Shown piece by piece: positions 24,698 through 63,084 of a DNA stretch of 64,000 bases. How positions within the stretch are numbered: position 1 is the stretch's first letter; each line of letters opens with the position of its first letter. The position numbers and the translations under genes were made by a program. The notes under the pieces are model-generated. The model did no database searches. It was given only the letters and a program-made list of their open reading frames with translations, and was not told the origin of the DNA. This DNA is from Diplolepis rosae (Eukaryota; Arthropoda; Insecta; Hymenoptera; Diplolepididae). The stretch is taken from contig JAPYXD010000169.1 in the NCBI GenBank assembly GCA_030998225.1, forward strand, positions 682,001-746,000. Reading direction: 5' to 3'.

Positions 24698-24698
24698 T

Positions 24699-24716
24699 TT
24701 TGGCGATCCTGCCACG
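24699..24716 (+). promoter_or_regulatory. Primer-binding site of element B
   Basis: TGGCGATCCTGCC starts two to three bases after the 5' LTR. The TGG start is the expected complement of a tRNA CCA end. Primer identity is not settled by eye. Confidence 0.6.
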
Positions 24717-29480: not shown

Positions 29481-30170
29481 CACTGGATATTTTTGGACCA
29501 TTACCCACTACACATAGAGGTAACAAATACATACTTAGTATTCAGGATAGATTGACCAGATACACCACTTTAATACCGTTAGAAAGTGAAACCTCAACAG
29601 CAATAGTAGAAGCTCTGATAGAACAATATATTTACATTTATGGATCCCCTAAAACTATTCTCACTGATCAAGGGTCTAACTTTCTATCTGAGTTAATGGA
29701 CCAATTTGAGAAAGCTTTGAAAATCAAACATATTAAAACTACAGCATTCCATCCACAATCCAACGGAAATATTGAAAGAATGCACTCAACCGTGAATAAT
29801 CTGATCAAAACTAGAATGGCAGAAAATCAGAATAACTGGGACGAAAATCTGAAATATGTAACATTCGCAATAAATTCAATAGTAAATCAAACCACGGGAT
29901 TCACACCCTTTGAACTCACGTTTGGAAGATTACCAAATATACCATCTCAAATTGAAAACTCACCCAATTGAACCCATCAAGATCTGATTAGAAAATGGAG
30001 GCAAAAACACGAGGAAAACATCAGAAAAGCTAAAGAAAGAATCCAAGTGGAATTAGAAAAAACTAAGAAAAGATTGGATGAAGGATATTCAAGCGATACT
30101 CAGAGAACAAATGTAAAACTTCACCTTTTGCTTTACACAAAGAAACCTTCATACCCGTACTAAACGGATA
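29464..30170 (+). pseudogene. Integrase core of element B (frameshifted)
   Basis: The frame following the break reads ALDIFGPLPTTHRGNKYIL (first catalytic Asp), ILTDQGSNFLSE (second Asp) and NGNIERMHSTV (Glu), followed by the usual TTGFTPFELTFGR block. A stop at 29969-29971 interrupts it. A helical tail (RKWRQKHEENIRKAKERIQ) continues in frame, and stops accumulate after 30110. All three catalytic residues are present, but the N-terminal zinc finger is lost and the C-terminus is broken. Confidence 0.85.
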
Positions 30171-30183
30171 CATAATAGTACTA

Positions 30184-30756
30184 ATGAACGAGGTAGATTT
30201 AGATATTAGCTGCGAAACAGGAATAGAACACCTAAAGATTAAACAAACCTCACTACTGACGGGCTCAAATTGTAAAATCTATAATGGAATGGACGCACTG
30301 TACCTTAGCAAAAATCTAAAGGGACAATTTTACAACGAATTCAATGTGACCTACAACATTAGTTACTCTAACGACGATCTCAAAACCTTAGAAAGTAAAT
30401 TAATACGTCTCCCTAAAATTATAGATAACAATGAATTACGACAAGCCAAATTAAGCCTAGACGATGCAGAAAATATGTTAAAATCAATAGCCACTAACAG
30501 AAGACTAAGAACATGGAGAGAAACAACCATAGATTGGTTAAGCTATTTAGGTTACGCAGCGCTAGGATTAGGATCAGCCTATGTTCTGTACAGATTAGGA
30601 ATACTCGAATTCATACAAAAGTGTATGCCCAAAAAACTCTGTATATTCTGTGTAAAAACAAAGGTAACAACGCCGACGAACGTTGTCACGTACAATTTTA
30701 GCTTGCAACCCTTGGTAACCACCGAAATACTAAAAGAAAGGAGGGTAAGAATTTAG
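30184..30756 (+). pseudogene. Env-like C-terminal fragment of element B
   Basis: This 190-residue frame corresponds to the C-terminal part of an insect errantivirus envelope-type protein. It has an ectodomain remnant with Cys residues and one Asn-x-Ser/Thr-type site, and a hydrophobic membrane segment at about residues 118-140 (WLSYLGYAALGLGSAYVLYR). A short basic, Cys-rich tail follows. The N-terminal majority, including any fusion and cleavage region, is absent. The fragment joins the integrase tail within about 60 bases, so a large deletion removed it. Assignment rests on position and overall pattern. Confidence 0.6.
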
Positions 30757-30828
30757 TAAATTGAGAGACTAATTCATGTCTAAAACAGACGGGTAAAATC
30801 TAGAAATTAAAGGGTTAATTTATGTCTA

Positions 30829-30838
30829 AAAAGGGGGG
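30829..30838 (+). promoter_or_regulatory. Polypurine tract of element B
   Basis: AAAAGGGGGG ends exactly at the TG of the 3' LTR. Confidence 0.85.
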
Positions 30839-31061
30839 TGTTACCAGGCCAGATGATGACCTCCTTCCCCCAGGTTTAGTTACCCGTATATGTAGAGGTT
30901 GATGACCTCCCCCTCCTAAGTTTAGCTGTCTATATATGTAGAGGTTCAGGCAGGCCTCGTCAGTTCTTCTCTAACATCTCTCAAGAATAAAAACATACAA
31001 AGTGACATCAGTTTGATGTCACTACCTTTAAAAATTAGAAAGTTTAGTTTTCACTATAACA
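30839..31061 (+). repeat. 3' LTR of element B
   Basis: Near-identical to 24476-24697. It ends TATAACA and is followed by ACCA, the second copy of the target duplication. Confidence 0.95.
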
Positions 31062-34601: not shown

Positions 34602-35311
34602 TTGGCTTTAGGGTCCGAAGAATATAAGACCGAGTGCGACGATCGAATCGCGCGCCCTAGGTGCGCTCAAACTTGCAAGAGAAGCGTGCGATGAGAAAGT
34701 GCCCACAAAACGGGAAGTTTTTTGTAGTATATTTTTACAAAATTAATATTTTTCTCTTAACTTGGGCTTATTAGAAGCAACACTGTGTTAACTTTTATTT
34801 TAGCATCAGGAAAAAATGTTAACCTTTTATTATAAAAATTAAGTTACTTTAACAATAGCTTAAATAACATATGAACCTCTAATTTCCGATGAAAGTGTCT
34901 GTGTAAAGAAAGGTTTTAAATATTACAAAAAAAGCATAAATTGTATTTGAATTCGCATGCGAACTTGCACTTTGAGATTTATTTGGTGTGAAGTAAATTC
35001 GACAAATCATTACTATAAAGTAAAATACTTGAAAAAACATTTTCAAAATATTTAATATTTTTACACGAATGTACATGCAGTCGACCGGCAATCGAAATAT
35101 CCGGGCTTGAGTCCCAGTGCATTCGAAAACGTCTTTTTTCCACAGAAAGATTTTCAAATTCTTTAAACTTAAGTATGTAGCTATGAACGTATTAATATCT
35201 TCAATGTTTTTAAATTATTCAATGTTTTATCAATGAATTTAAAATAATAGATTGTAATGACCCATGATTTAATTTATAATAGACTTCTTCATTTATGGAC
35301 CCTAAAGCCAA
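34602..35311. mobile_element. Possible small TIR element
   Basis: TTGGCTTTAGGGTCC at 34602-34616 is matched exactly in inverted orientation at 35297-35311. The 710-base interval is noncoding. Only about 15 bases pair and no target duplication was found, so this is tentative. Confidence 0.5.
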
Positions 35312-35530
35312 TGCAATTTGGTAAAACATTTTGAATTCAAAATAATTCTGAATGTTTGAGTATAAAAGGTTTGAATATTTGGAAAATACATAAATTATAT
35401 CAAAATTAGCACAGGAAATCGCACACTACCTTTAATTTGGTATGAAGTAAAATTGAAAATAAATCCTTTAGAATAAAATATTTTGAAAAAACTTACAGAA
35501 TACATAACATATTTTAAATAAAAATTTCAA
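34960..35530. repeat. Diverged direct repeat of about 100 bases
   Basis: The stretch near 34965-35060 (TTTGGTGTGAAGTAAA, then AAAATACTTGAAAAAAC) recurs near 35425-35520 (TTTGGTATGAAGTAAAA, then AAAATATTTTGAAAAAAC). One copy is inside and one outside the possible TIR element. Confidence 0.5.
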
Positions 35531-35587
35531 TATATAAGTATAAATAAAAGGCTTGATTATTCAAAAGTAAAATATATTATTTTTGTA

Positions 35588-36600
35588 ATAGTTAATTTGG
35601 CATGGGGTCAGTTTTGATACGGATTTATTTTTTTAAATGATAGAACACATAAAAAATACAAAAGGCAAACGTTTCGGCCACAAATGGGGGCCCTCTTCAG
35701 TGCCAATTAGCTTAATAGTAACCTTTAAATATTTATTAACTAAGACATGCAACTTAATAATTATTGTATTTTTTGTTTTTTTCTTTTTTTCCTTTGATTA
35801 TTGATATTAGAAAAAGATAGAGTAAACATGCGGAAAGACTTATGGGTAAGCGAGTTCCTAGGTGTGAAGGAACCAGGCCGTTCCAAAAACTGTTCCAACG
35901 AGTAATCCTCTCCCACAGGAACCGTGAAAAATGCGACCGCGGAACGCACTCTCTCAAGGGCACATATATAAACACAATTATTTCACCAAAGAAAGAAACA
36001 ACACGATGGAGAATATAACGTGGATCCTTGGTAAAGCACGCACAGCAAACCACACACATTCACGAGCGCCAGAAGTAAAGGACACTGAAGTTAAAACAAT
36101 AAGAACGATGCAATTGGAACGGAAAAATCTTTATTTTTTATTTTCTCCGAAGCCGCAGAGATGACAGACGAAAGTAAGTCCACCACTGTGCCACATGGCT
36201 AAAAGAAAACTGATTTGGGAAGAAGTCGTATTTAGGAAGACTAGTGTTCAGAGTTTGACGTGTATAGAAAGCATTCGCCAGATAGGTCAGGTTCCAACAC
36301 CAAGGGTTATACACAGTAAAACCTTATTTTAATGTCGCCGGCACTTGAGATTATTATGTGCTCAAGCGTCCGACAAAAGCAAAGACCACCACATGTTCGA
36401 AAAACTCTGTAAGGAAAGGCACTCACTACGGTCCCGACGTCGTAAAAATTATACACATTTTTGTGGATATAGAAAGTAAAATGCAACTAAAGTGGAAATT
36501 CACGAAAAATTAATTTCCTGGTTTTTCGTAACCTCTGATTCTTAATAACTGGAACCCGGAAAAATACAATATTAAGTTTATAAGTATGATGTTCGAGTTT
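35588..36600 (-). repeat. PLE pseudo-LTR, copy A
   Basis: Reverse complement of copies B (45332-46403) and C (52888-53956). It lacks their last 60 or so bases, the part that carries the RT start codon. It contains the hammerhead-like motif at 35671-35700. Repeated short open frames within it occur in all three copies and are a by-product of the duplication. Confidence 0.9.
35671..35700 (-). ncRNA. Hammerhead-like motif, pseudo-LTR A
   Basis: Minus strand CTGAAGA, a GGGCC...GGCC stem with a short loop, then GAAAC. This is the consensus order of a hammerhead core. See copy B for the flanking dyad. Confidence 0.45.
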
Positions 36601-39600
36601 TTCAGATTATAAGACTGTTGTAAAGTGGAAAATATTACGAGAGTTATTCGAACTCTGACTTAAATAGAGTGGCCAATTAATACAGTAGCACTACGGATTC
36701 TAAGACTGATAAAAAGTGGCCAAGTAATGCGCGAGCACTTCGGAATCTAATTCTGAGTAAGGTGGCCAAGTAATGCGCGAGCACATCAGACTCTGATTCT
36801 GAGTAAGGTGGCCAAGTAATGCGAGAGCTCTTCGGACTCAGATTTTCAGTAAGGTGGCCAAGTAATGCGCGAGTTCAATGAACGTCAGGACTGATATAAA
36901 TGCAAAAATAGCCGCGTAATACGCGAGATCAAACGAAGTCTGACCTAAATAAGGAGGCAAAGTACTGCGCGAATTCTTAGGAGTACAGAATTTTTATATA
37001 AAGTGGCCAAGTAATGCGCGAGCTCTTCGGACTCTGGCTTAAAATTATGTGGCCAAGTAATGCGCGAGTTCAATGGACGTCAGGACTGATATAAATGCAC
37101 AAAAAGTCGCGTAATAAGCGAGATCAAACAAAGTCTGACCTAAATAAGGTGGCAAAGTAATGCGCAAATTCTTAGTACAGAATTTTTATATAAAGTGGCT
37201 AAGTAATGCGAGAGTTCAATGGACGTCAGGACTGATATAAATACAAAAATAGGTGCGTAATACGCGAGTTGAACGCAGTCTGACCTGAAAAGAGTGGCCA
37301 AGTAATGCGCGAATTCTTAGGGGTATAAGAATTTTTATAAAGTGGCCAAAAAATAATAATTAACACTTAGGGTCCTTAGACTCTGACCTGAATAAAGCCG
37401 CCAAGTAATGCGCGAGCACTTCGGATTCAGATTTTCAGTAAGGTGGCCAAGTAATGCGCGAGTTCAATGGACGTCAGGACTGATATAAATGCAAAAATAG
37501 CCGCGTAATACGCGAGATCAAACAAAGTCTGACCTAAATAAGGAGGCAAAGTAATGCGCGAATTCTTAGTAGTACAGAATTTTTATATAAAGTGGCCAAG
37601 TAATGCGCGAGCTCTTCGGACTCTTGCTTAAAATTATGTGGCCAAGTAATGCGCGAGTTCAATGGACGTCAGGACTGATATAAATGCACAAAAAGTCGCG
37701 TAATACGCGAGATCAAACAAAGTCTGACCTAAATAAGGTGGCAAAGTAATGCGCGAATTCTTAGTACAGAATATTTATATAAAGTGGCCAAGTAATGCGC
37801 GAGTTCAATGGACGTCAGGAATGATATAAATACAAAAATAGGCGCGTAATACGCGAGTTGAACGCAGTCTGACCTGAAAAGAGTGGCCAAGTAATGCGCG
37901 AATTCTTAGGGGCATAAGAATTTGTATAATGTGGTCAAAAATTATAATTTACACTCAGGGTCCTTAGACTCTGACCTGAATAAAGCGGCCAAGTAATGCG
38001 CGAGCACTTCGGACTCAGATTTTCAGTAAGGTGGCCAAGTAATGCGCGAGTTCAATGGACGTCAGGACTGATATAAATACAAAAATAGCCGCGTAATACG
38101 CGAGATCAAACGAAGTCTGAACTAAAAAAGGTGACAAAGTAATGCGCGAATTCTTAGTACAGGATTTTTATATAAAACGGCCAAGTAATGCGCGAGCACT
38201 TCGGACTCTGGCTTAAAATTATGTGGCCAAGTAATGGGCGAGTTCAATGGACGTCAGGACTGATATAAATACAAAAATAGCCGCGTAATACGCGAGTTGA
38301 ACGAAGTCTGATCTGAAAAGAGTGGCCAAGTAATGCGCGAATTTCTTAGGGGTATAAGAATTTTTATAAAGTGGCCAAAAAATAATAATTAACACGTAGG
38401 CTCCTTAGACTATGACCTGAATAAGGCGGCCAAGTAATGCGCGAGCACTTCGGACTCTGACTTTCAGTAAGGTGGCTAAGTAATGCGCGAATTCAATGGA
38501 CGTCAGGACTGATATAAATGTAAAAATAGCCGCGTAATACGTGAGATCAAACGAAGTCTGACCTAAATAACGTGGCAAGGTAATGCGCGAGCTCTTCGGA
38601 CTCTGGCTTAAAATTATGTGGCCAAGTAATGCGCGAGTTCAATGGACGTCAGGACTGATATAAATACAAAAATAGGCGCGTAATACGCGAGTTCAACGAA
38701 ACCTGACCTAAATAAGGTGGCAAAGTAATGCGCGAATTCTTAGTACAGAATTTTTATATAAAGTGGCCAAGTAATGCGCGAGCTCTTCGGACTCTGGCTT
38801 TAAATTATGTGGCCAAGTAATGCGCGAGTTCAATGGACGTCAGGACTGATATAAATGCACAAAAAGCCGCGTAATACGCGAGATCAAACAAAGTCTGACC
38901 TAAATAAGGTGGCCAAGTAATGCGCGAATTCTTAGGGGCATAAGAATTTTTATAATGTGGTCAAAAAATATAATTTACACTCAGGGTCCTTAGACTCTGA
39001 CCTGAATAAAGCGGCCGAGTAATGCGCGAGCAGTTCGGACTCAGATTTTCAGTAAGGTGGCCAAGTAATGCGCGAGTTCAATCGACGTCAGTACTGATAT
39101 AAATGCAAAAATAGCCGCGTAATACGCGAGATCAAACGAAACCTGACCTAAATAAAGTGGCAAAGTAATGCGCGAATTCTTAGTACAGAATTTTTATATA
39201 AAGTGGCCAAGGAATGCGCGAGCTCTTCGGACTCTGGCTTTAAATTATGTGGCCAAGTAATGCGCGAGTTCAATGGACGTCAGGACTGATATAAATGCAC
39301 AAAAAGCCGCGTAATACGCGAGATCAAACAAAGTCTGACCTAAATAAGGTGGCAAAGTAATGCGCGGATTCTTAGGGGCATAAGAATTTTTATAATGTGG
39401 TCAAAAATTATAATTAACACTCAGGGTCATTAGACTCTGACCTGAATAAAGCGGCCAAGTAATGCGCTAGCACTTCGGACTCAGATTTTCAGTATGGTGG
39501 CCAAGTAATGCGCGAGTTCAATGGACGTCAGGACTGATATAAATGACAAAATATCCGCGTAATACGCGAGATCAAACGAAGTCTGACCTAAATAAGGTGA

Positions 39601-42600
39601 CAAAGTAATGCGCGAATTCTTAGTACAGGATTTTTATATAACGTGGCCAAGTAATGCGCGAGCTCTTCGGACTCTGGCTTAAAATTATGTGGCCAAGTAA
39701 TTCGCGAGTTCAATGGACGTCAGGACTGATATAAATATAAAAAATAGCCGCGTAATACGCGAGTTGAACGAAGTCTGACCTGAAAAAAGTGGCCAAATTA
39801 ATGCGCGAATTCTTAGGGGTAAAAGAATTTTTATAAAGTGGCCAAAAAATAATAATTAACACGTAGGCTCGTTATACTCTGACCTGAAAAAAGCGGCCAA
39901 GTAATGCGCAAGCACTTCGGACTCTGATTTTCAATAAGGTGGCCAAGTAATGCGCGAATTCAATGGACGTCAGGACTGATATAAATACAGAAATAGCCTG
40001 AATTAACTAATGTGGCCAAGTAATGCGCGAATTCTTAGGGCTATAAGAATTTTTATAAAGTGGCCAAAAAATAATAATTAACACTTAGGGTCCTTAGACT
40101 CTGACCTGAATAAAGCCGCCAAGTAATGCGCGAGCACTTCGGATTCAGATTTTCAGTAAGGTGGCCAAGTAATGCGCGAGTTCAATGGACGTCAGGACTG
40201 ATATAAATGCAAAAATAGCCGCGTAATACGCGAGATCAAACAAAGTCTGACCTAAATAAGGAGGCAAAGTAATGCGCGAATTCTTAGTAGTACAGAATTT
40301 TTATATAAAGTGGCCAAGTAATGCGCGAGCTCTTTCGGACTCTGGCTTAAAATTATGTGGCCAAGTAATGCGCGAGTTCAATGGACGTCAGGACTGATAT
40401 AAATGCACAAAAAGTCGCGTAATACGCGAGATCAAACAAAGTCTGACCTAAATAAGGTGGCAAAGTAATGCGCGAATTCTTAGTACAGAATATTTATATA
40501 AAGTGGCCAAGTAATGCGCGAGTTCAATGGACGTCAGGAATGATATAAATACAAAAATAGGCGCGTAATACGCGAGTTGAACGCAGTCTGACCTGAAAAG
40601 AGTGGCCAAGTAATGCGCGAATTCTTAGGGGCATAAGAATTTGTATAATGTGGTCAAAAATTATAATTTACACTCAGGGTCCTTAGACTCTGACCTGAAT
40701 AAAGCGGCCAAGTAATGCGCGAGCACTTCGGACTCAGATTTTCAGTAAGGTGGCCAAGTAATGCGCGAGTTCAATGGACGTCAGGACTGATATAAATGCA
40801 AAAATATTCGCGTAATACGCGAGATCAAACGAAGTCTGAACTAAAAAAGGTGACAAAGTAATGCGCGAATTCTTAGTACAGGATTTTTATATAAAACGGC
40901 CAAGTAATGCGCGAGCACTTCGGACTCTGGCTTAAAATTATGTGGCCAAGTAATGCGCGAGTTCAATGGACGTCAGGACTGATATAAATACAAAAATAGC
41001 CGCGTAATACGCGAGTTGAACGAAGTCTGATCTGAAAAGAGTGGCCAAGTAATGCGCGAATTCTTAGGGGTATAAGAATTTTTATAAAGTGGCCAAAAAA
41101 TAATAATTAACACGTAGGCTCCTTAGACTATGACCTGAATAAGGCGGCCAAGTAATGCGCGAGCACTTCGGACTCTGACTTTCAGTAAGGTGGCTAAGTA
41201 ATGCGCGAATTCAATGGACGTCAGGACTGATATAAATGTAAAAATAGCCGCGTAATACGTGAGATCAAACGAAGTCTGACCTAAATAAGGTGGCAAAGTA
41301 ATGCGCGAGCTCTTCGGACTCTGGCTTAAAATTATGTGGCCAAGTAATGCGCGAGTTCAATGGACGTCAGGACTGATATAAATACAAAAATAGGCGCGTA
41401 ATACGCGAGTTCAACGAAACCTGACCTAAATAAGGTGGCAAAGTAATGCGCGAATTCTTAGTACAGAATTTTAATATAAAGTGGCCAAGGAATGCGCGAG
41501 CTCTTCGGACTCTGGCTTTAAATTATGTGGCCAAGTAATGCGCGAGTTCAATGGACGTCAGGACTGATATAAATGCACAAAAAGCCGCGTAATACGCGAG
41601 ATCAAACAAAGTCTGACCTAAATAAGGTGGCCAAGTAATGCGCGAATTCTTAGGGGCATAAGAATTTTTATAATGTGGTCAAAAAATATAATTTACACTC
41701 AGGGTCCTTAGACTCTGACCTGAATAAAGCGGCCGAGTAATGCGCGAGCAGTTCGGACTCAGATTTTCAGTAAGGTGGCCAAGTAATGCGCGAGTTCAAT
41801 CGACGTCAGTACTGATATAAATGCAAAAATAGCCGCGTAATACGCGAGATCAAACGAAACCTGACCTAAATAAAGTGGCAAAGTAATGCGCGAATTCTTA
41901 GTACAGAATTTTTATATAAAGTGGCCAAGGAATGCGCGAGCTCTTCGGACTCTGGCTTTAAATTATGTGGCCAAGTAATGCGCGAGTTCAATGGACGTCA
42001 GGACTGATATAAATGCACAAAAAGCCGCGTAATACGCGAGATCAAACAAAGTCTGACCTAAATAAGGTGGCAAAGTAATGCGCGGATTCTTAGGGGCATA
42101 AGAATTTTTATAATGTGGTCAAAAATTATAATTAACACTCAGGGTCATTAGACTCTGACCTGAATAAAGCGGCCAAGTAATGCGCTAGCACTTCGGACTC
42201 AGATTTTCAGTATGGTGGCCAAGTAATGCGCGAGTTCAATGGACGTCAGGACTGATATAAATGACAAAATATCCGCGTAATACGCGAGATCAAACGAAGT
42301 CTGACCTAAATAAGGTGACAAAGTAATGCGCGAATTCTTAGTACAGGATTTTTATATAACGTGGCCAAGTAATGCGCGAGCTCTTCGGACTCTGGCTTAA
42401 AATTATGTGGCCAAGTAATTCGCGAGTTCAATGGACGTCAGGACTGATATAAATACAAAAAATAGTCGCGTAATACGCGAGTTGAACGAAGTCTGACCTG
42501 AAAAAAGTGGCCAAAGTAATGCGCGAATTCTTAGGGGTAAAAGAATTTTTATTAAGTGGCCAAAAAATAATAATTAACACGTAGGCTCGTTATACTCTGA

Positions 42601-43480
42601 CCTGAAAAAAGCGGCCAAGTAATGCGCAAGCACTTCGGACTCTGATTTTCAATAAGGTGGCCAAGTAATGCGCGAATTCAATGGACGTCAGGACTGATAT
42701 AAATACAGAAATAGCCTGAATTAACTAATGTGGCCAAGTAATGCGAAAATTCTTAGGAGTACAGAATTTTTATATAAAGTGGCCAAATAATGCGCGAGCT
42801 CTTCGGACACTGACTTAAAGTTATGTGGCCAACTAATGCGCAAGTTCGATGGACGTAAGGACTGATATAAATACACAAATAGCCGCGTAATACGCGAGTT
42901 GAACGAAGTCTGACCTGAAAAGAGTGGCCAAGTAATGCGCAAGCTCTTCGGACTCTGACTTAAAGTTTTTTGGCCAAGTAATGCGCCAATTCTTAGGGGT
43001 ATATGAATTTTTATAATGTGGTAAAAAAATAATAATTAACACTTAGGGTCCTTAGAATCTGACCTGAATAAAGCGGCCAAGTAATGCGCAAGGACTTCGG
43101 ACTCTGATTTACAGTAAGGTGGCCAAGTAATGCGCGAGTTCAATGGACGTCAGGACTGATATAAATGCAAAAATAGCCGCGTAATACGCGAGATCAAACA
43201 AAGTCTGACCTAAATAAGGTGGCAAATTAATGCGCGAATTCTTAGTACAGGATTTTTATATAAAGTGGCCAAGTAATGCGCAAGCTCTTCGGACTCTGGC
43301 TCAAAATTTTGTGGCCAAGTAATGCGCGTGTTAAATGGACGTCAGGACTTTTAAAAATACAAAAATTAGCCGCGTAATACGCGAGTTCAACGAAACCTGA
43401 TCTAAATAAGGTGGCCAACAATGCGCGAGTTACAACGATATCTGACCCAGACAAAGTGGCCAGATGTAAGAACATAAACC
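36601..43480 (-). repeat. Satellite array of the minus-strand PLE (~6.9 kb)
   Basis: The array is built from units with the core GTGGCCAAGTAATGCGCGAG, separated by 20-30-base variable parts of a few recurring types. The types are TTCAATGGACGTCAGGACTG, CTCTTCGGACTCTGGCTT, a CGCGTAATACGCGAG type, and ATTCTTAGxxCAGAATTTTTATATAAA. Several types in a row form higher-order units of a few hundred bases. A larger recent duplication of 2,718 bases lies inside. There is no coding capacity. Confidence 0.95.
37279..42714. repeat. 2,718-base tandem duplication inside the array
   Basis: Landmarks repeat at a constant offset: TGGCCAAAAAATAATAATTA at 37343 and 40061, AACACGTAGGCTCC at 38391 and 41109, and AGCCTGAATTAACTAATG at 39995 and 42713. 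The two copies differ by occasional substitutions and compensating 1-base indels, so the duplication is young compared with the divergence between basic units. The left border is approximate. Confidence 0.85.
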
Positions 43481-43532
43481 GTGAAGGGACGACTGAAACA
43501 CGGTGGGTCCCAATTTCTCAGGTCACATTTTT

Positions 43533-45330
43533 TTATGACCCTTTTTTAAGTATAGGATTGTAAATCTTAGAAAGGTTTTCTATATCGGTTCTAAGATTCA
43601 CCGCATCGTTCGTACCTGCAATGTGACACATTTCCAACAGCAATCTTTTTTTGTAGTTTTTTTCGTTAGCTAAGATTTTTGTTCTATCAAAATCGAAGAA
43701 GTGGTCTCTTTCAATCGTATGTTTTGTTAGCGCATTTTGTTTATTGGGGCTTTCTCTAATGTTATTTTTATGTTCTTTTAGTCTGTTTTTAAGGAATCGT
43801 TTCGTTTGACCTATATAGACAGCCTTGCAGTCATTCCCTTTGCAAGGAACGCTGTAAACGACGTTAGAAGATTGATCTTTGGGTATTTTGTCCTTGGTTG
43901 GTATGAAGATCGTTTTTAGGTTTTTTTGGTTTTTGTACGCAGCGTTTATGTTGTAGCTATGTAGGATTCCTGATATTCTCTCTGACAGAACTTCAACGTA
44001 AGGGATACTAATGAAGGGTTTGTTTTCTGTGTTTATGTCGGCCTGATTGTTACCTAATCGTGTCTTATGTTCAAGGGTAAGAAGTCTTAGATTTATAATC
44101 TCTTGCGTGAACTGTTGTGGATAGTCATTTTCTAGTAGTGTATCTATAATTAGTTTAAGGTTGTTTTTTTGAAATTCCTTATCTGAAAGTAGAATTGCCC
44201 TGTCAACTAAGTTGTTTACAACACTTTTCTTGTATCTGAGGGGGTGATGGGAATTAAAGTTAAGGTATCTTCCAGACCAAGACGGTTTCCTATACCAATT
44301 GAAAGAAAGTTTTTGATTCTGTTTCCTAGTCATAGTGACATCTAGAAAATTAATAGCACCATTTATCTCTTTTTCTAGGGTGAATTCAATATTGAGGGAA
44401 TTGTTGTTGAAGATTTGCAAAATGTGGTTCACTTGTGTGTCAGGAACCACGATAAGAATATCGTCTACGTATCGAAAGTAAACAGGTACTTCAAAATCAA
44501 GATTAGAGAGCCTGTCTTTTTCTAGGTCATCCATCACTATATCTGCAGGGACGGGGGAGAAAGTAGAACCCATTGGTAAACCGCGTTTTTGAAAATAGGT
44601 GGTGCCATCGAAATTAAAGTCTGTGCTATCCAAGCATAATCGCAACCCTTCTTCATATTCCTTCCATGGCAATGATACTTTGCGACGAATCTCTTCCCAT
44701 CTATTTTTTACAGCAGAGATGGCTGCTTCCTTGGGTATATTTGTGAAAAGGGACACTACATCCAAGGAGGCGAGAACAAAATTATCAGGGACACTAACAT
44801 TTTTAAGTTTCTGGACTAGTTCGAAACTGTTAATGATTTTTGATTTTGGTGGCGTGGTGTTTTTAGATATGGTAGTGCTAAAGAAGGATGCTAGATTGTA
44901 GGTAGGACTGCCTATGTAAGATACAATGGGTCTAATGGGGTTGCCTTCTTTATGGATTTTGGGTAATCCGTAGAATCTGGAGGGAACAGCATTAGAAGAC
45001 TTTAAATCCTTAGCTAACAGGTTGTTGATTAATTTTTTGTTTTCCCATGTTTTGACTAGACAATTTACTTTATTTTGTATTTTGGTTGTAGTGTCCTTGG
45101 GGCGGACTTTGTATGTGTTTTCGTCTTTTAGAAGGTTCAATACTTTCTCGTTGTAATCTGTTCGCGTCAAGGCTACTGTGGTGTTACCTTTGTCTGCCCT
45201 AGTAAAAACTATGTCCGGGTTATTTTTTACGAAATCCCTAGCTTCTTTTATTTCTTTAACAGGTTGTACGAATTTAGATTTGTGTTCATTCCCATTTTTC
45301 TTAAAATTATTAACGACGTTAGCAACTTTT
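43533..45330 (-). pseudogene. PLE reverse transcriptase-GIY-YIG protein, 5' truncated but open
   Basis: The frame is open from the junction at about 45330 to the stop at 43533, about 600 codons without a break; the first internal Met is at 45170. Visible parts are RADKGNTTVALTR, RFYGLPKIHKEGNPIRP, motif A LASLDVVSLFTNIP, RGLPMGS, catalytic YFRYVDDILIV, the LVDRAILLSDKEFQ region and a C-terminal GIY-YIG nuclease (CKGNDCKAVYIGQTKRFLKN). RT copies RNA at a nicked target and the nuclease makes the nick. Near the palm it has two substitutions relative to the plus copy (GSTFSPVPAD against GSPFSPVLAD). The N-terminal roughly 250 residues and the promoter are missing, because the ORF is cut at pseudo-LTR B. 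Confidence 0.9.
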
Positions 45331-45734
45331 AAGCTCGGACATCATACTTATAAACTTAATATTGTATTTTTCCGGTTTCCAGTTATTAAGAATCAGAGGT
45401 TTCGAAAAACCAGGAAATTAATTTTTCGTGAATTTCCACTTTAGTTGCATTTTACTTTCTATATCCACAAAAATGTGTATAATTTTTACGACGTCGGGAC
45501 CGTAGTGAGTGCCTTTCCTTACAGAGTTTTTCGAACATGTGGTGGGTCTTTGCTTTTGTCGGACGCTTGAGCACATAATAATCTCAAGTGCCGGCGACAT
45601 TAAAATAAGGTTTTACTGTGTATAACCCTTGGTGTTGGAACCTGACCTATCTGGAGAATGCTTTCTATACACGTCAAACTATGAACACTAGTCTTCCTAA
45701 ATACGACTTCTTCCCAAATCAGTTTTCTTTTAGC

Positions 45735-45800
45735 CATGTGGCAGAGTGGTGGACTTACTTTCGTCTGTCATCTCTGCGGCTTCGGAGAAAATACAAAATA
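45735..45800 (+). promoter_or_regulatory. Possible Pol III-type internal promoter in the pseudo-LTR
   Basis: TGGCAGAGTGG (about 45739-45749) fits the tRNA A box TGGCNNAGTGG exactly. About 30 bases on, GCTTCGGAG is a weak B-box-like word. The same pair is in copies A and C. The B box is poor and no tRNA fold is evident, so this is tentative. Confidence 0.3.
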
Positions 45801-46231
45801 AAAATTTTTCCGTACCAATTACATCGTTCTTATTGTTTTAACTTCAGTGTCCTTTACTTCTGGTGCTCGTGAATGTGTGGGGTTTGCTGTGCGTGCTTTA
45901 CCAAGGATCCACGTTATATTCTCCATCGTGTTGTTTCTTTCTTTGGTGAAATAATTGTGTTTATATATGTGCCCTTGAGAGAGTGCGTTCCGCGGTCGCA
46001 TTTTTCACGGTTCCTGTGGGAGAGGATTACTCGTTGGAACAGTTTTTGGAACGGCCTGGTTCCTTCTCACCTAGGAACTCGCTTACCCATAAGTCTTTCC
46101 GCATGTTTACTCTATCTTATTCTAATATCAATAAGCAAAGGAATAAAAGAAAAAAACAAAAAATACAATAATTATTAAGTTGCATGTCTTAGTTAATAAA
46201 TATTTAAAGGTTACTATTAAGCTAATTGGCA

Positions 46232-46261
46232 CTGAAGAGGGCCCCCATTTGTGGCCGAAAC
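46232..46261 (+). ncRNA. Hammerhead-like motif, pseudo-LTR B
   Basis: CTGAAGA is followed by a GGGCC/GGCC stem and GAAAC, the order of a hammerhead core. The bases just upstream (AGCTAATTGGCA) can pair with TGCCAAATT about 75 bases downstream (about 46331), which could form an outer stem I around a long stem III region. A proper UH cleavage dinucleotide at the expected place was not found, so activity is doubtful. Confidence 0.5.
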
Positions 46262-46382
46262 GTTTGCCTTTTGTATTTTTTTATGTGTTCTATCATTTAA
46301 AAAAATAAATCCGTATCAAAACTGACCCCATGCCAAATTTACTATTACAAAATTATTATTGTGGGTCAATAAAACATTGAAC

Positions 46383-48911
46383 ATGTACGGAAACATGTCA
46401 CGAAATAATTTTACTTATGGCAACAATCAAAATGGTAGAAGTGGGATGGGTTTTTACAAACAAATAGAAGAGACATATGGATATGAGGAGGCATTACTCC
46501 TCAAAAAATGGTCTCAATTAAATCTAGACTATGCGAATAGCTTTAATCAGAGAATTTTCCTACTACGGTGTAGGAAACTTGAAGTTCTTCCCAAACATTT
46601 ACAAGGTATCCGATCTCAACACATTGGTTTTAATTCTAGAAATATGAGTAACAAATTCTCAAACCTGCATAATACTTTTCTTAGGTCCATTTTAAACCTT
46701 GAAATTTGTGACATATGTGCATATTTAAAGTACCTTGTGAATCAAATTATGTATTTTCAAAGTAGAATAGTTGCTATTTTTCCAAACCACATGTTCGACA
46801 GATTTTTTGAGCTCGAATCCGGAAAAGTCTCCCGCCGTTTTGAAGAAAGCAAATTTAAATGCAAAAAGAAACTTAATTTACTGATAAGGTCTCTTGATTG
46901 TAATAAAAAGACCGTTTCCAACAGTAAACTTAACCAAAAGTTGTTCAAAAATTTAACAGGAAACCAAATTCCAGAGAATGTAGCAAAAATAGCTAGCTTA
47001 GGAATAAATTTCGGTGTTACTATAAAAAAACGGGAAATTCCTACATATAATATAATCGCGGACATCGAATCTAACATTAATAAAATTGATCCTGAATCTC
47101 AAGATGAATTGCGCTTAAAAATTGCTAACGTCGTTAATAATTTTAAGAAAAATGGGAATGAACACAAATCTAAATTCGTACAACCTGTTAAAGAAATTAA
47201 AGAAGCTAGGGATTTCGTAAAAAATAACCCGGACATAGCTTTTACTAGGGCAGACAAATGTAACACCACAGTAGCCTTGACGCGAACAGATTACAACGAG
47301 AAAGTATTGAACCTTCTAAAAGATGAAAACACATACAAAGTCCGCCCCAAGGACACTACAACCAAACTACAAAATAAAGTAAATTGTCTAGTCAAAACAT
47401 GGGAAAACAAAAAATTAATCAACAACCTGTTAGCTAAGGATTTAAAGTCTTCTAATGCTGTTCCCTCCAGATTCTACGGATTACCCAAAATCCATAAAGA
47501 AGGCAACCTCATTGGACCCATTGTATCTTATGTAGGCAGTCCTACCTACAATCTAGCATCCTTCTTTAGCACTACCATATCTAAAAACACCACGCCACCA
47601 AAATCAAAAATCATTAACAGTTTCGAACTAGTCCAGAAACTTAAAAATGTTAGTGTCCCTGATAATTTTGTTCTCGCCTCCTTGGATGTAGTGTCCCTTT
47701 TCACAAATATACCCAAGTAAGCAGCCATCTCTGCTGTAAAAAATAGATGGGAAGAGATTCGTCGCAAAGTATCATTGCCATGGAAGGAATATGAAGAAGG
47801 GTTGCGATTATGCTTGGATAGCACAGACTTTAATTTCGATGGCACCACCTATTTTCAAAAACGCGGATTACCAATGGGTTCTCCTTTCTCCCCCGTCCTT
47901 GCAGATATAGTGATGGATGACCTAGAAAAAGACAGGCTCTCTAATCTTGATTTTGAAGTACCTGTTTACTTTCGATACGTAGACGATATTCTTATCGTGG
48001 TTCCTGACACACAAGTGAACCACATTTTACAAATCTTCAACAACAATTCCCTCAATATTGAATTCACCCTAGAAAAAGAGATAAATGGTGCTATTAATTT
48101 TCTAGATGTCACTATGACTAGGAAACAGAATCAAAAACTTTCTTTCAATTGGTATAGGAAACCGACTTGGTCTGGAAGATACCTTAACTTTAATTCCCAT
48201 CACCCCCTCAGATACAAGAAAAGTGTTGTAAACAACTTAGTTGACAGGGCAATTCTACTTTCAGATAAAGAATTTCAAAAAAACAACCTTAAACTAATTA
48301 TAGATACACTACTAGAAAATGACTATCCACAACAGTTCACGCAAGAGATTATAAATCTCAGACTTCTTACCCTTGAACATAAGACACGATTAGGTAACAA
48401 TCAGGCCGACATAAACACAGAAAACAAACCCTTCATTAGTATCCCTTACGTTGAAGTTCTGTCAGAGAGAATATCAGGAATCTTACATAGCTACAACATA
48501 AACACTGCGTACAAAAACCAAAAAAACCAAAAACGATCTTCATACCAACCAAGGACAAAATACCCAAAGATCAATCTTCTAACGTCGTCTACAGCGTTCC
48601 TTGCAAAGGGAATGACTGCAAGGCTGTCTATATAGGTCAAACGAAACGATTCCTTAAAAACAGACTAAAAGAACATAAAAATAACATTAGAGAAAGCCCC
48701 AATAAACAAAACGCGCTAACAAAACATACGATTGAAAGAGACCACTTCTTCGATTTTGATAGAACAAAAATCTTAGCTAACGAAAAAATTACAAAAAAAG
48801 ATTGCTGTTGGAAATGTGTCACATTGCAGGTACGAACGATGCGGTGAATCTTAGAACCGACATAGAAAACCTTTTTAAGATTTACAACCCTATACTTAAA
48901 AAAGGGTCATA
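46383..48911 (+). pseudogene. PLE reverse transcriptase-GIY-YIG protein, full length but disrupted
   Basis: The likely start is ATG 46383, at the end of pseudo-LTR B; an in-frame open stretch begins slightly earlier. The N-terminal domain (to about residue 290) precedes RADKCNTTVALTR, where Gly of the ADKG motif is Cys. The RT core follows. A stop TAA at 47718-47720 replaces the GAA found in the minus copy, just after motif A (SLFTNIPK). The frame then continues with RGLPMGSPFSP and YFRYVDDILIV. A 1-base deletion near 48531 and another near 48787 put the GIY-YIG part (KAVYIGQTKRF) out of frame. It ends at the TAA/TGA cluster near 48911 and is followed by the satellite array. Confidence 0.9.
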
Positions 48912-48959
48912 AAAAAATGTGACCTGAGAAATTGTGACCCACCGTGTTTCAGTCGTCCC

Positions 48960-51900
48960 TTCACGGTTTATGTTCTTACATCTGGCCACTTTGTCTGGGT
49001 CAGATTTGGTTGTAACTCGCGCATTTTTGGCCACCTTATTTAGGTCAGGTTTCGTTGAACTCGCGTATTACGCGGCTAATTTTTGTACTTATATCAGTCC
49101 TGACGTCCATTTAACTCGCGCATTACTTGGCCACATAATTTTAAGCCAGAGTACGAAGAGCTCGCGCATTACTTGGCCACTTCATATAAAAATTCTGTAC
49201 TAAGAATTTGCGCATTACTTTGCCACCTTATTTAGGTCAGACTTTGTTTGATCTCGCGTATTACGCGGCTATTTTTGCATTTGTATCAGTCCTGACGTCC
49301 ATTGAACTCGCGCATTACTTGGCCACCTTACTGTAAATCAGAGTCCGAAGTGCTTGCGCATTACGTGGCCGCTTTATTCAGGTCAGAGTCTAAGGACCCT
49401 AAGTGTTAATTATTATTTTTTTACCACATTATAAAAATTCATATACCCCTAAGAATTGGCGCATTACTTGGCCAAAAAACTTTAAGTCAGAGTCCGAGGA
49501 GCTTGCGCATTACTTGGCCACTCTTTTCAGGTCAGACTTCGTTCAACTCGCGTATTACGCGGCTATTTGTGTATTTATATCAGTCCTTACGTCCATCGAA
49601 CTTGCGCATTAGTTGGCCACATAACTTTAAGTCAGTGTCCGAAGAGCTCGCGCATTATTTGGCCACTTTATATAAAAATTCTGTACTCCTAAGAATTTTC
49701 GCATTACTTGGCCACATTAGTTAATTCAGGCTATTTCTGTATTTATATCAGTCCTGACGTCCATTGAATTCGCGCATTACTTGGCCACCTTATTTAGGTC
49801 AGACTTCGTTTGATCCCGCGTATTACGCGGCTATTTTTGCATTTATATCAGTCCTGACGTCGATTGAACTCGCGCATTACTTGGCCACCTTACTGTAAAT
49901 CAGAGTCCAAAGTGCTTGCGCATTACTTGGCCGCTTTATTCAGGCCAGAGTCTAAGGACCCTGAGTGTTAATTATTATTTTTTGACCACATTATAAAAAT
50001 TCTTATACCCCTAAGAATTCGCGCATTACTTGGCCACTCTTTTCAGGTCAGACTGCGTTCAACTCGCGTATTACGCGCCTATTTTTGTATTTATATCAGT
50101 CCTGACGTCCATTGAACTCGCGAATTACTTGGCCACTTTATATAAAAATTCTGTACTAAGAATTCGCGCATTACTTTGCCACCTTATTTAGGTCAGACTT
50201 CGTTTGATCTCACGTATTACGCGGCTATTTTTATATTTATATCAGTCCTGACGTCCATTGAACTCGCGCATTACCTAGCCACCTTACTGAGAGTCAGAGT
50301 CCGAAGTGCTTGCGCATTACTTGGCCGCCTTATTCAGGTCATAGTCTAAGGACCATAAGTGTTAATTATTATATTTTTTTGGCCACTTTATATAAATTCT
50401 TATACCCCTAAGAATTCGCGCATTACTTTGCCACCGTATTCAGGTCAGACTTCGTTAGATCTCGCGTATTACACGGCTTTTTGTGCATTTATATCAGTCC
50501 TGACGTCCATTGAACTCGCGCATTACTTGGCCACGTAATTTTAAGCCTGGGTCCGAAGAGCTCACGCATTACTTGGCCACATTAGTTAGGTCAGACTTCG
50601 TTTGATCTCGCATATTCCGCGATTATTTTTGCATTTATATCAGTCCTGACGTCCATTGAACTCGCGCATTACTTGGCCTTCTTACTGAAAGTCAGAGTCC
50701 GAAGTGCTCGCGCATTACTTGGCCGCCTTTTTCAGGTCATAGTCTAAGGAGCCTATGTGTTAATTATTATTTTTTGGCCACGTTATAAAAATTCTTATAC
50801 CCCTAAGAATTCGCGCATTACTTGGTCACTCTTTTCAGGTCAGACTGCGTTCAACTCGCGTATTACGCACCTATTTTTGTATTTATATCAGTCCTGACGT
50901 CCATTGAACTCGCGCATTACTTGGCCACTTTATATAAAAATTCTGTACTAAGAATTTGCGAATTTCTTTGCCTCCTTATTTAGGTCAGACTTCGTTTGAT
51001 CTCGCGTATTACGCGGCTATTTTTGCATTTATATCAGTCCTGACGTTCATTGAACTCGCGCATTACTTGGCCACCTTACTGAACATCTGAGTCCGAAGAG
51101 CTCTCGCATTACTTGGCCACCTTACTCAGAATCAGAGTCTGATGTGCTCGCGCATTACTTGGCCACTTTATATAAAAATTCTGTACTAAGAATTCCCGCA
51201 TTACTTTGCCACCTTTTTTAGGTCAGACTTTGTTTGATCTCGCGTATTACGCTGCTATTTTTGCATTTATATCAGTCCTGACGTCCATTGAACTCGCGCA
51301 TTACTTGGCCACATAATTTTAAGCCTGGGTCCGAAGAGCTCACGCATTACTTGGCCACATTAGTTAGGTCAGACTTCGTTTGATCTCGCATATTCCGCGA
51401 TTATTTTTGCATTTATATCAGTCCTGACGTCCATTGAACTCGCGCATTACTTGGCCACATAATTTTAAGCCTGGGTCCGAAGAGCTCACGCATTACTTGG
51501 CCACATTAGTTAGGTCAGACTTCGTTTGATCTCGCATATTCCGCGATTATTTTCGCATTTATATCAGTCCTGACGTCCATTGAACTCGCGCATTACTTGG
51601 CCTTCTTACTGAAAGTCAGAGTCCGAAGTGCTCGCGCATTACTTGGCCGCCTTTTTCAGGTCATAGTCTAAGGAGCCTATGTGTTAATTATTATTTTTTG
51701 GCCACGTTATAAAAATTCTTATACCCCTAAGAATTCGCGCATTACTTGGTCACTCTTTTCAGGTCAGACTGCGTTCAACTCGCGTATTACGCACCTATTT
51801 TTGTATTTATATCAGTCCTGACGTTCATTGAACTCGCGCATTACTTGGCCACCTTACTGAACATCTGAGTCCGAAGAGCTCTCGCATTACTTGGCCACCT

Positions 51901-52887
51901 TACTCATAATCAGAGTCTGATGTGCTCGCGTATTACTTGGCCACTTTATATAAAAATTCTGTACTAAGAATTCGCGCATTACTTTGCCACCTTATTTAGG
52001 TCAGACTTCGTTTGATCTCGCGTATTACACGGCTTTTTGTGCATTTATATCAGTCCTGACGTCCACTGAACTCGCGCATTACTTGGCCACATAATTTTAA
52101 GCCTGGGTCCGAAGAGCTCACGCATTACTTGGCCACATTAGTTAGGTCAGACTTCGTTTGATCTCGCATATTCCGCGATTATTTTTGCATTTATATCAGT
52201 CCTGACGTCCATTGAACTCGCGCATTACTTGGCCTTCTTACTGAAAGTCAGAGTCCGAAGTGCTCGCGCATTACTTGGCCGCCTTTTTCAGGTCATAGTC
52301 TAAGGAGCCTACGTGTTAATTATTATTTTTTGGCCACGTTATAAAAATTCTTATACCCCTAAGAATTCGCGCATTACTTGGTCACTCTTTTCAGGTCAGA
52401 CTGCGTTCAACTCGCGTATTACGCACCTATTTTTGTATTTATATCAGTCCTGACGTCCGTTGAACTCGCGCATTACTTGGCCACTTTATATAAAAATTCT
52501 GTACTAAGAATTTGCGCATTTCTTTGCCTCCTTATTTAGGTCATACTTCGTTTGATCTCGCGTATTACGCGGCTATTTTTGCATTTATATCAGTCCTGAC
52601 GTTCATTGAACTCGCGCATTACTTGGCCACCTTACTGAAAATCTGAGTCCAAAGAGCTCTCGCATTACTTGGCCACCTTACTCAGAATCAGAGTCTGATG
52701 TGCTCGCGCATTACTTGGCCACCTTACTCAGAATTAGATTTCGATGTGCTCGCGCATTACTTGGCCCCTTTTTATCAGTCTTAGAATCCGTAGTGCTACT
52801 GTATTAATTGGCCACTCTATTTAAGTCAGAGTTCGAATAACTCTCGTAATATTTTGCCACTTTACAACAGTCTTATAATCTGAAAAA
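48960..52887 (+). repeat. Satellite array of the plus-strand PLE (~3.9 kb)
   Basis: The same unit family as 36601-43480 in reverse complement (CTCGCGCATTACTTGGCCAC core), so the polarity relative to the RT ORF is the same. Its own local duplications differ. For example, a segment beginning AAGCCTGGGTCCGAAGAGCTC recurs near 50544, 51321, 51471 and 52102. It runs without a gap into pseudo-LTR C. Confidence 0.95.
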
Positions 52888-53956
52888 CTCGGACATCATA
52901 CTTATAAACTTAATATTGTATTTTTCCGGGTTCCAGTTATTAAGAATCAGAAGTTTCGAAAAACCAGGAAATTAATTTTTCGTGAATTTCCACTTTAGTT
53001 GCATTTTACTTTCTATATCCACAAAAATGTGTATAATTTTTACGACGTCGGGACCGTAGTGAGTGCCTTTCCTTACAGAGTTTTTCGAGCATGTGGTGGG
53101 TCTTTGCTTTTGTCGGACGCTTGAGCACATAATAATCTCAAGTGCCGGCGACATTAAAATAAGGTTTTACTGTGTATAACCCTTGGTGTTGGAACCTGAC
53201 CTATCTGGCGAATGCTTTCTATACACGTCAAACTCTGAACACTAGTCTTCCTAAATACGACTTCTTCCCAAATCAGTTTTCTTTTAGCCATGTGGCAGAG
53301 TGGTGGACTTACTTTCGTCTGTCATCTCTGCGGCTTCGGAGAAAATACAAAATAAAAATTTTTCCGTACCAATTACATCGTTCTTATTGTTTTAACTTCA
53401 GTGTCCTTTACTTCTGGCGCTCGTGAATGTGTGTGGTTTGCTGTGCGTGCTTTACCAAGGATCCACGTTATATTCTCCATCGTGTTGTTTCTTTCTTTGG
53501 TGAAATAATTGTGTTTATATATGTGCCCTTGAGAGAGTGCGTTCCGCGGTCGCATTTTTCACGGTTCCTGTGGGAGAGGATTACTCGTTGGAACAGTTTT
53601 TGGAACGGCCTGGTTCCTTCACACCTAGGAACTCGCTTACCCATAAGTCTTTCCGCATGTTTACTCTATCTTTTTCTAATATCAATAATCAAAGGAAAAA
53701 AAGAAAAAAACAAAAAATACAATAATTATTAAGTTGCATGTCTTAGTTAATAAATATTTAAAGGTTACTATTAAGCTAATTGGCACTGAAGAGGGCCCCC
53801 ATTTGTGGCCGAAACGTTTGCCTTTTGTATTTTTTATGTGTTCTATCATTTAAAAAAATAAATCCGTATCAAAACTGACCCCATGCCAAATTAACTATTA
53901 CAAAATCATTATTGTGGGTCAATAAAACATTGAACATGTACGGAAACATGTCACGA
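52888..53956 (+). repeat. PLE pseudo-LTR, copy C
   Basis: Matches copy B from ACTCGGACATCATAC to ATGTCACGA. After 53956 the sequence is unrelated AT-rich DNA, so this is the 3' border of the element. It has the same tRNA-like box (about 53293) and hammerhead-like motif (53786-53815). Confidence 0.9.
53786..53815 (+). ncRNA. Hammerhead-like motif, pseudo-LTR C
   Basis: Identical core to copy B (CTGAAGA, stem, GAAAC). Here TGCCAAATTAACTATT downstream pairs well with the upstream AGCTAATTGGCA. Confidence 0.45.
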
Positions 53957-54530
53957 TATAAAATATATTATATCTAATATTTTATCGAACAGCACACTTT
54001 AAGATTTCATTGGTATTGGGATACACATTTTTAAAATTACACGACTTTTTGTAACATGTTTAACCCCAGCATATAGAATCCATAAAAGACTTTCTAAAAA
54101 TATTTTAATTAGGTTAACAAATCACTATGAAGACATACTAAAAAAAAATCTCTTAAAATTTTAATTTTCTTACACACTTCTTAATTTCCTTTTAAAAGAT
54201 CTAAATTAAAATTTTTTTTGTAATATCTTTCTATAAAATAAATCACTTTAACGAAAGTTGAAACTCCAGGTCAACCTGTAATTTCCGATCGTAGTTTATA
54301 TATATATTAGCGTTTTTCACAAAAAAAAGTTGGTTGTTTGTCCGCGGCCGTATCGCGACAATTGGTTTCTGTAGGTGAGAAAATACTTACCTAATTTTTG
54401 CAGATTAAAAAAAAAATGTAGAGGTCGCGAGCATCAATTTTATGTAAAAATTAAGATTTTTGTAGTTTTCATTTTTTAAAAGCTTAAATATTAATTATAG
54501 AGAAATACTCGATAGATGATATATATATAT
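53957..54530. other. AT-rich flank of the PLE
   Basis: No gene is seen. It ends in a short (TA)n run at about 54521-54541, next to the fold-back arm. Confidence 0.45.
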
Positions 54531-61416: not shown

Positions 61417-63060
61417 TCATTTTGTTGGTTCCATAACGTTTATTTTCGTTAAGACTCTTTTCACTGTGGAGTTGACTCTCTCCAGTTGTTCGTTACCTCG
61501 TGGAATGCCTGCTGTTATCTTCAAATGATGGACGTTCTCCTTCTGGCAAAACTTGTCGAATGCCCCTGCGATAAAGCATGGACCTCTGTCCGTGACGACT
61601 CTATCCGGATTGCCGAAGTGCTGTAGTAGTACACGTATTTTCTTCGGCGTCTCTTTCGTGCCAGTGGACTTTGTTGGGAAAAGCCATACATATTTGGTAA
61701 ATCCGTCAATAATCACTAGGATGTGATTATATTTTTTCTTCGTCTCGTTCAATGGGCCCACGTAGTTCAGGTGTAGCGTGTGTAATGGCGTCTCTCCTTT
61801 TGGAATTGGTCGAAGAATTCCCTCTTGCTTACCTGCTTTTCGTGAGCCCAAGATGCACGCCAAACAGTTTTGGATAAACTCGTTAATTCGTTTATCCAAT
61901 TTCTCGATGAAGTATTCCCGTGAGAGCAGCTCCACAGTTTTTTTTGTACCAAAGTGTCCGACTTCGTGCGCTCTCCGAATGAGTTCGTGTTGCAATCTCC
62001 TCGGTACGACGAGCATTTCATTGCCTTCGCTGCCCTTGAAGACCAATCCGTACTTGATTTTGTGGTCCTTGAAAGCTTCTTTCTCGAGGAGAGCTTTCAG
62101 TGCTTTCAGCTTGTCGTCACGAGCTTGTGCTCGGCTCAATCGGCTGTTCAATCCGTCGTAAACCAGGTTGATGGATGTCACTCGGCTGAATGCATCCACA
62201 TGCCGCATGCTCGTACCTGCGCTATGTACTGTCTTGAACGTATACTCCGATAGGCTTGTGATCCAACGACCTATCCGTGGAGTAAGCTCCTTTTTCTGCA
62301 TCGTAGCTTCGAATGCAGAACAGTCTGTTACGACTGTAAATGAAATTCCTAGAAGGTACTTACGGAATTTCTCAATGGCCTTGATGACAGCCGAAAACTC
62401 TAACTCGTAGCTGCGGTATTTCTCTTCCGCTGATGTCGTCTTGCGGCTCATGTAGTAGATCGGGTGAAGATTTTCTCTCTTCTCGTCCCACTGCAATAGG
62501 ATTGCGCCGTAGCCATCCTTCGACGCATCGGTATGCTGCTCTGTCTCTCTGGTTTGTCGATATAGTTGTAGACCTGGTGGCTTTGTCAGTGCACATCTAA
62601 GTTCGTGAAACGCTGCTTGTTGCTTTTCGCCAAAAGTAAATCGTCGCTCCTGCTTGAGCAGATCGCTGAGGAGTTTTGCGATTTTTGCATATCCACGGAT
62701 GAATTTACGGAAATACGATGCGAGGCCCAAAAATCGCTGAAGCTGCTTCTCGGTTCGTGGCTCGATGTAGTTTGAGATCGCTGCTGTCTTGTCCGACGAT
62801 GCCCAGATTGCTTCATCCTCCACGATGTGACCGAGAAATTCAACTCTCGTTTGTAGCAGTTGGCACTTTTTCCAGTTGATGTTCAACCCGAAGTGCGCTG
62901 CTACCTCCAAAACTTTACGTAGGTTGTCCAACGCTTCCGCAAAAGTTTTCGCTAAAATAACTCCGTCGTCGAATAATAAAATGAGAATCCTTTTCCTTAT
63001 GAGTTCTGCGAAAATGTATCGCAAAAACCGTGCGAAAACTCCTGGTTATGTAGCCAATTC
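61417..63060 (-). pseudogene. Element C pol: RT thumb, RNase H and integrase core
   Basis: The frame starts in the RT after a deletion. It has LLFDDGVI, where YxDD would be expected, then the thumb NWKKCQLLQTRVEFLGHIV and connection FLGLASYFRKFIRGY. RNase H shows HTDASKDGYGAILLQ. Integrase has the zinc finger HEVGHFGTKK...CLAC. In the core, the first catalytic Asp is Asn (LHLNYVGPL, codon at 61765-61767); VTDRGPCF and GNEQLERVN keep the second Asp and the Glu. The RT fingers and most of the palm, including motif A, are missing. This copy cannot be autonomous. Confidence 0.88.
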
Positions 63061-63084
63061 GAATTTTTCCTTAGGTGCCAAACG

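Follow-up and report, generated by a model that had tools for sequence, protein, structure and literature searches.

The closest analogue of the element described here is the satellites in the 3′ untranslated region (3′ UTR) of plant Ogre retrotransposons. In the Ogre/Tat long terminal repeat (LTR) retrotransposons of legumes (PisTR-A, FabTR), tandem repeats of variable length have a fixed place downstream of the coding region and ahead of the 3′ repeat, and long arrays of related satellites are found elsewhere in the genome (PMC7004042; PMC9659126). For Ogre elements the 3′-UTR tandem repeats are described as hypervariable (PMC7004042). A similar arrangement is reported here for a Penelope-like element (PLE) in a 64,000-nt stretch of the genome of the hymenopteran insect Diplolepis rosae (assembly GCA_030998225.1, contig JAPYXD010000169.1, positions 682,001 to 746,000, forward strand), referred to below as the window. 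The two systems differ in retroelement class and in integration, the array being copied here by a PLE in two inverted arms. They also differ in host: the top named relatives of the protein encoded by the open reading frame (ORF) in the window are insect proteins without a named function, the closest of them from ants (44%).

Among PLEs, the Pen families of Adineta vaga and Poseidon of Anolis share with this element a reverse transcriptase (RT) combined with a GIY-YIG endonuclease, pseudo-LTRs (pLTRs), an inverted pLTR, target-site duplications (TSDs) and an optional tail (PMC3846280; PMC11167929), the tail being optional on one inverted pLTR (PMC3846280). Pen1 in addition has a 0.9–1.5-kb spacer before its 3′ pLTR, but this is said to be captured host DNA, specific to each copy (PMC3846280), whereas here one satellite family is present in all copies read. 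HeT-A/TART of Drosophila provide a satellite derived from the 3′ non-coding region of a retroelement in an animal (PMC9659126), but are telomeric elements similar to long interspersed nuclear elements, not PLEs. Tandem repeats have also been tied to PLEs in metazoan retrozymes and in satellites of Harttia fish (PMC7229834; PMC11955569), and minimal type I hammerheads are recorded in PLEs (PMC7229834). The Harttia repeat, however, is described only as Penelope-related (PMC11955569), and retrozymes carry a hammerhead ribozyme in each monomer; none was found by an Rfam search (E ≤ 1) in the arrays of the window. A 2025 review gives Penelope elements one clause among satellite sources (PMC12692304), and the word Penelope is absent from the cited portions of a review that tabulates repeats originating from transposable elements (PMC9659126). 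No satellite array fixed between the ORF and pLTR of a PLE was found in the portions of the literature searched, whose coverage leaves out subscription journals.

The window contains two ORFs with RVT_1 domains arranged head to head, each followed on its 3′ side by a satellite array and then by a pLTR of ~1.05 kb. An earlier note, made from the letters of this DNA, had taken these for two independent units. They are instead a single insertion of 18.4 kb with two inverted arms, because an exact 13-bp TSD (TAAAATATATTAT) lies directly to the left of pLTR A and directly to the right of pLTR C. The parts of the insertion are:

35568–35580: left TSD copy, 13 bp, TAAAATATATTAT, an exact match to 53959–53971
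35581–36600, minus strand: pLTR A, tail-less, the outer end of the left arm (BLAST to pLTRs C and B, pieces 97.9–98.3%)
~36601–43470, minus strand: satellite array 1, 6.9 kb, including an internal duplication of 2.78 kb (TRF and self-comparison)
43533–45334, minus strand: left-arm ORF with RT and GIY-YIG, 5′-truncated at ~45334 (PF00078, 1.8e-9; PF01541, 4.5e-6, in the last 122 residues)
45331–46408, plus strand: pLTR B, lying 5′ in the right arm and abutting the truncated left ORF (BLAST, 98.5% to pLTR C; the same as locus L014)
46383–48912, plus strand: right-arm ORF, with an in-frame stop at 47718–47720 and frame changes (three-frame translation; PF00078, 9.7e-10, on the second piece)
48913–48978, plus strand: linker from ORF stop to array, used as a search pattern (116 genome sites at ≤3 mismatches, control 0)
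~48979–52884, plus strand: satellite array 2, 3.9 kb, 72 monomer starts (TRF, monomer split, and 30 of 30 ORF-end loci)
52885–53958, plus strand: pLTR C with tail, the outer end of the right arm (BLAST and locus comparison)
53780–53826, plus strand: hammerhead-like motif within pLTR C (strict core intact in 27 of 30 pLTR loci; no Rfam match)
53959–53971: right TSD copy, 13 bp, TAAAATATATTAT, matching 35568–35580

The remainder of the earlier description of the locus was borne out by TRF, BLAST and Pfam matches: the 6.9- and 3.9-kb arrays occupy exactly the interval from ORF stop to pLTR, with the same polarity, a short linker separating array 1 from the left-arm stop codon (43533–43535, minus strand). 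In BLAST pieces, the mutual identity of pLTRs A, B and C is 97.9–98.5%. Among the copies compared, A is closest to C and C to A (99.12%), with B more distant; C is almost as near to another genome copy (99.11%) as it is to A. The ORF and array edge of the left arm are 98.1% identical to those of the right (BLAST).

By its predicted domains, the element is an endonuclease-bearing PLE, with RT and GIY-YIG. The RT domain (PF00078, RVT_1) scores above the cut-off in both ORFs. The GIY-YIG endonuclease (PF01541) is matched at the C-terminus of the left ORF when the last 122 residues are searched (E = 4.5e-6), its 27.3 bits exceeding the curated cut-off of 22.6; the full-length ORF piece, searched at E ≤ 0.001, gives RVT_1 alone. 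The hallmarks of PLEs are present: pLTRs, tandem or inverted units, a TSD and an optional tail. The motif at 53780–53826 resembles a hammerhead; its core is intact in 27 of 30 loci, but there was no Rfam match at E ≤ 1 anywhere across 35000–54500, this motif and the arrays included. The arrays thus lack the ribozyme in each monomer that characterizes retrozymes, and one 341-base piece of array showed no unusual RNA fold (z-score 0.12).

In this PLE family the array is a constant component. A genome search with pLTR C, in which 40 of 1855 candidates were scored (identity 98–100%), gave 30 loci that were read with 1.5-kb flanks. In 29 of these the array directly precedes the pLTR, with the same polarity; the one pLTR without it is pLTR B of the window, at the joint of the two arms, where it adjoins the truncated left ORF. 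Six of the 29 continue into an ORF. The other 23 run out into host DNA, at 22 separate sites (a flank is common to L018 and L019), and their 3′ flanks are unrelated host DNA. Approached from the coding side, a 40-base linker pattern from directly after the ORF occurs 116 times in the genome, and the array came next in all 30 of the loci read, so that its position and orientation downstream of the coding region are constant from both directions. There are 608 matches to a 47-base pattern across the array/pLTR junction and 620 to a 42-base pattern from the pLTR start. All of these pattern counts permit ≤3 mismatches, and reversed-pattern controls gave 0; the count of 116 linkers may be an underestimate, as full-length ORFs of a subgroup (e.g., C43, C216) are not among the 100 linker places listed. 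Since there are 608 array/pLTR junctions but only 116 ORF/array junctions, most arms seem to stop within the array. The view of the earlier note that the satellite is a 3′ module of the element is supported by these counts. The array, lying inside TSD-flanked insertions, has therefore transposed with the element.

The array sequence is also abundant in its own right. A 47-base module from it has 36,227 matches in the genome (13,596 forward and 22,631 reverse; control 0). At one module per 220–231 bp, a density taken from the window locus alone, this corresponds to ~8 Mb of satellite, or ~1% of 757.7 Mb. Exact module matches keep a single orientation across 19 kb of the 28.2-kb contig C2 and across 17 kb of C12. 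With long head-to-tail arrays and high copy number, it is a true satellite. Much of it seems to lie outside junction-bearing copies: if each of the 608 arms had an array of 6.9 kb, they would still account for only about half of the modules. The strand imbalance of the module suggests a few very long one-way arrays.

Six composites were examined at both ends (the window, L024/L040, L071, L072, L073 and L074), and four of them have TSDs, of 13 bp in the window, 12 in L024/L040, 11 in L071 and ~15 in L074, each with one tailed and one tail-less end. A further 20 convergent pairs were chosen from the 100 junctions listed, and both outer ends were read; those at C281, C355, C296 and C88 hold further internal junctions. 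An exact terminal repeat of at least 10 bp was found in 17 of the 19 pairs scored by script, compared with 2 of 342 mismatched pairings; in the two remaining pairs the repeat has one mismatch (11 of 12). In the pair at C369, which the script did not score, the repeat is visible by eye, and the non-tailed end is shorter than the usual tail-less end. All 20 pairs therefore have a TSD (17 by script, two with one mismatch, one by eye). All 20 also have one tailed end, never two or none, as do 24 of 24 when the four composites with TSDs are included (L072 and L073, discussed below, were excluded from this count); were the ends independent and even, the chance of 20 asymmetric pairs out of 20 would be ~1 in a million. 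Among the 100 listed junctions, neighbours <40 kb apart are in the order −,+ in 26 cases and +,− in none.

The composites vary widely in size. Three without an ORF (L071, L024 and L074) measure 2.2–3.6 kb, while the largest, at C88, has two junctions per arm and 29.5 kb between its outer junctions. The suggestion that this is an unusually large PLE thus holds for composites, measured junction to junction, but less so for a single unit, which comes to ~4.5–10.5 kb as the sum of its parts. Units also occur in tandem: C352 has a run of them with periods of ~5.65 and ~5.84 kb, and the one that was read (L039) consists of an 839-codon open frame, a 2.2-kb array and a pLTR. In L118 and L119, the arm passes through the 5′ pLTR into an upstream array. 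The right arm of L116 ends at pLTR position 53, and L115 joins pLTR position 772 to an ORF. pLTR B had hinted that the RNA has a discrete 5′ end where the pLTR starts; this was not upheld, as the five arm joints (L115–L119) differ.

We favor, at a probability of roughly 0.8, the reading that this is a PLE family with a hypervariable satellite 3′ UTR (~0.9–6.9 kb), spread by two-arm insertion. The template would be an RNA of tandem units, comprising pLTR, ORF, array, pLTR and the start of the next ORF; the read-through of L118 and L119 into an upstream array is as expected from such a template. Both target strands would be cut, ~10–17 bp apart, with each cut priming synthesis by the RT at either of two sites close to where the next ORF begins: presumably the tailed site on one target strand and the tail-less site on the opposite one. 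Copying would proceed from pLTR to array to ORF, for the most part halting within the array, and the two complementary DNAs (cDNAs) would be joined head to head. Each insertion would leave satellite DNA behind, often as an inverted pair of arrays, and the satellite could grow from these element-borne seeds.

Because exactly one end of each counted convergent insertion bears a tail, the ends suggest two RT start sites, one per target strand. As the array would be copied right after the pLTR, early stops would leave pLTR and array only, which would explain both the excess of array/pLTR junctions over linkers and the composites that lack an ORF. A purified lizard PLE begins reverse transcription within the template, at two neighbouring sites between which the tail lies, and it cuts and extends both strands of the target (PMC11167929). 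By analogy, the pattern here fits two cDNAs, one per start site, which would be a stricter rule than in that study. A stronger version, in which asymmetric twin priming is obligate, most cDNAs end and join in the satellite, and the element is a satellite factory and the source of the satellite making up ~1% of the genome, is put forward tentatively, as less likely than not.

Several observations count against the favored reading. L072 (C316:9837700-9840900) has two tailed ends, with flanking host DNA in inverted repeats of each other; the pLTR of L073 is reduced to 37 bp, with no TSD; and L117, one of the five arm joints fetched, is mostly other sequence at its joint. With the lizard PLE no difference in start site between strands was seen, and a strand-specific step is not predicted by that work (PMC11167929). 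Array lengths, moreover, are as given by the assembly, and the long separate arrays may hold half or more of the modules, the satellite now being independent of the element. The inverted repeat flanking L072 could be due to an inversion or to fold-back assembly.

The strongest alternative is that a genomic satellite already existed and was captured once by the ancestor of the PLE family, the long arrays being older and independent, and the element now spreading the satellite. We place this not far short of an even chance. It is favored by the one-way long arrays that are separate from the element but have the same monomer order (C2, C12, C79), although the reading of long arrays covers only 2.2 kb (L120 and L121); these two pieces consist of array alone, their monomers are of the kinds found in PLE arrays and follow a similar order, and the best long matches between them and PLE arrays stand at 76–92%. 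It is also favored by single copies of two sibling PLE families that have no array in the stretch read. A public-source protein, P0003, is 99% identical to a genome copy at C182 (54 of 8547 candidates scored), and the two sibling families are 85–99% identical to it and ~70–72% to the window's family; the C398 copy belongs to the 85–87% family. No array was found within ~670 bp 3′ of the ORF in one copy of the P0003 family and one of the C398 family. In 12 comparisons of sibling 3′ regions with array monomers, the best was matched by 9 of 200 shuffles and is not significant. Separately, L122 and L123, 3′ of sibling-family ORFs, contain short degenerate repeats ~250 bp apart, partly common to both families. 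The fixed edge monomers at both array junctions fit a single capture or a single origin alike, and the present observations do not separate capture from birth inside the element. The array thus exists elsewhere without the element, which is half of what the earlier note had said would tell against its proposal; the other half, a copy of the window's family with a whole ORF/pLTR interval but no array, was not seen. Its idea of satellite seeding is partly supported, in that insertions have left array DNA at hundreds of places and long separate arrays exist, but this support does not extend to the order of origin.

A second possibility is that a short array was inserted and reached kilobase length afterwards, via unequal exchange or replication slippage. 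Array length is certainly variable. Whole arrays can be as short as 0.93 kb (L045) and 1.1 kb (L048), and in 15 pairable copies the distance from the ORF linker to the next listed pLTR is 1.1–6.25 kb, from a comparison of 36 of the 100 listed linker places with the 40 listed pLTR places; these values are upper bounds because no more than 40 pLTRs were listed. The two arms of the one insertion in the window are unequal (6.9 and 3.9 kb), and array 1 contains its recent 2.78-kb duplication (99.1% identity by self-comparison). Monomer spacing in array 2 is mainly 45/46, 54 and 103 bp. Between copies, colinearity extends ~400 bp into the array from the ORF and ~200 bp from the pLTR; the order of the interior varies, being scrambled even between copies whose flanks are 97–99% identical. 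Arrays 1 and 2 likewise match at their edges (97.3% over 864 bp and 96.5% over 433 bp). The unequal arms, the duplication and the scrambled interiors would be compatible with later growth; however, the interiors of arrays 1 and 2 seldom reach 95%, although pLTRs A and C are 99.1% identical, and regrowth would give closer monomers. The repeated tandem units of C352, moreover, share arrays of 2.0–2.2 kb. Growth after insertion is therefore considered improbable as the main source of array length.

Misjoined repeats in the assembly are a very unlikely explanation: arrays are hard to assemble, and the flanks of L072 are palindromic, but the same junctions recur hundreds of times, with different flanks and with TSDs. 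Finally, a preference of the element for inserting into or next to satellite arrays, which the sheer abundance of the satellite (36,227 module matches) would fit, is ruled out by arrays that lie between ORF and pLTR, inside TSDs and with one fixed junction sequence, and by the 22 unrelated host 3′ flanks.

If the favored reading is correct, this family is a PLE counterpart to plant Ogre, carrying a satellite as a fixed part and depositing it at hundreds of sites, and the birth and spread of a satellite could be followed insertion by insertion. PLE integration is poorly known, and the copies that have TSDs, and a tail at one end only, turn it into a testable, strand-specific model.

Outside the composite, the window contains a Gypsy-type element (24475–31061, plus strand) with gag-like, RT/RNase H and integrase regions and a weak Baculo_F envelope match (2.6e-4, below the cut-off). 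Its two ends carry a 223-bp repeat whose copies are 97.8% identical. Two more fragments of Gypsy-type pol that include integrase domains are present at 21705–23216 and 61417–63966 (both minus strand). There are inverted repeats at 15061–17112 and 18951–20243, with arms of 447 bp (96.6%) and 516 bp (94.4%), respectively, and a near-palindrome of 186 bp at 11794–11979.

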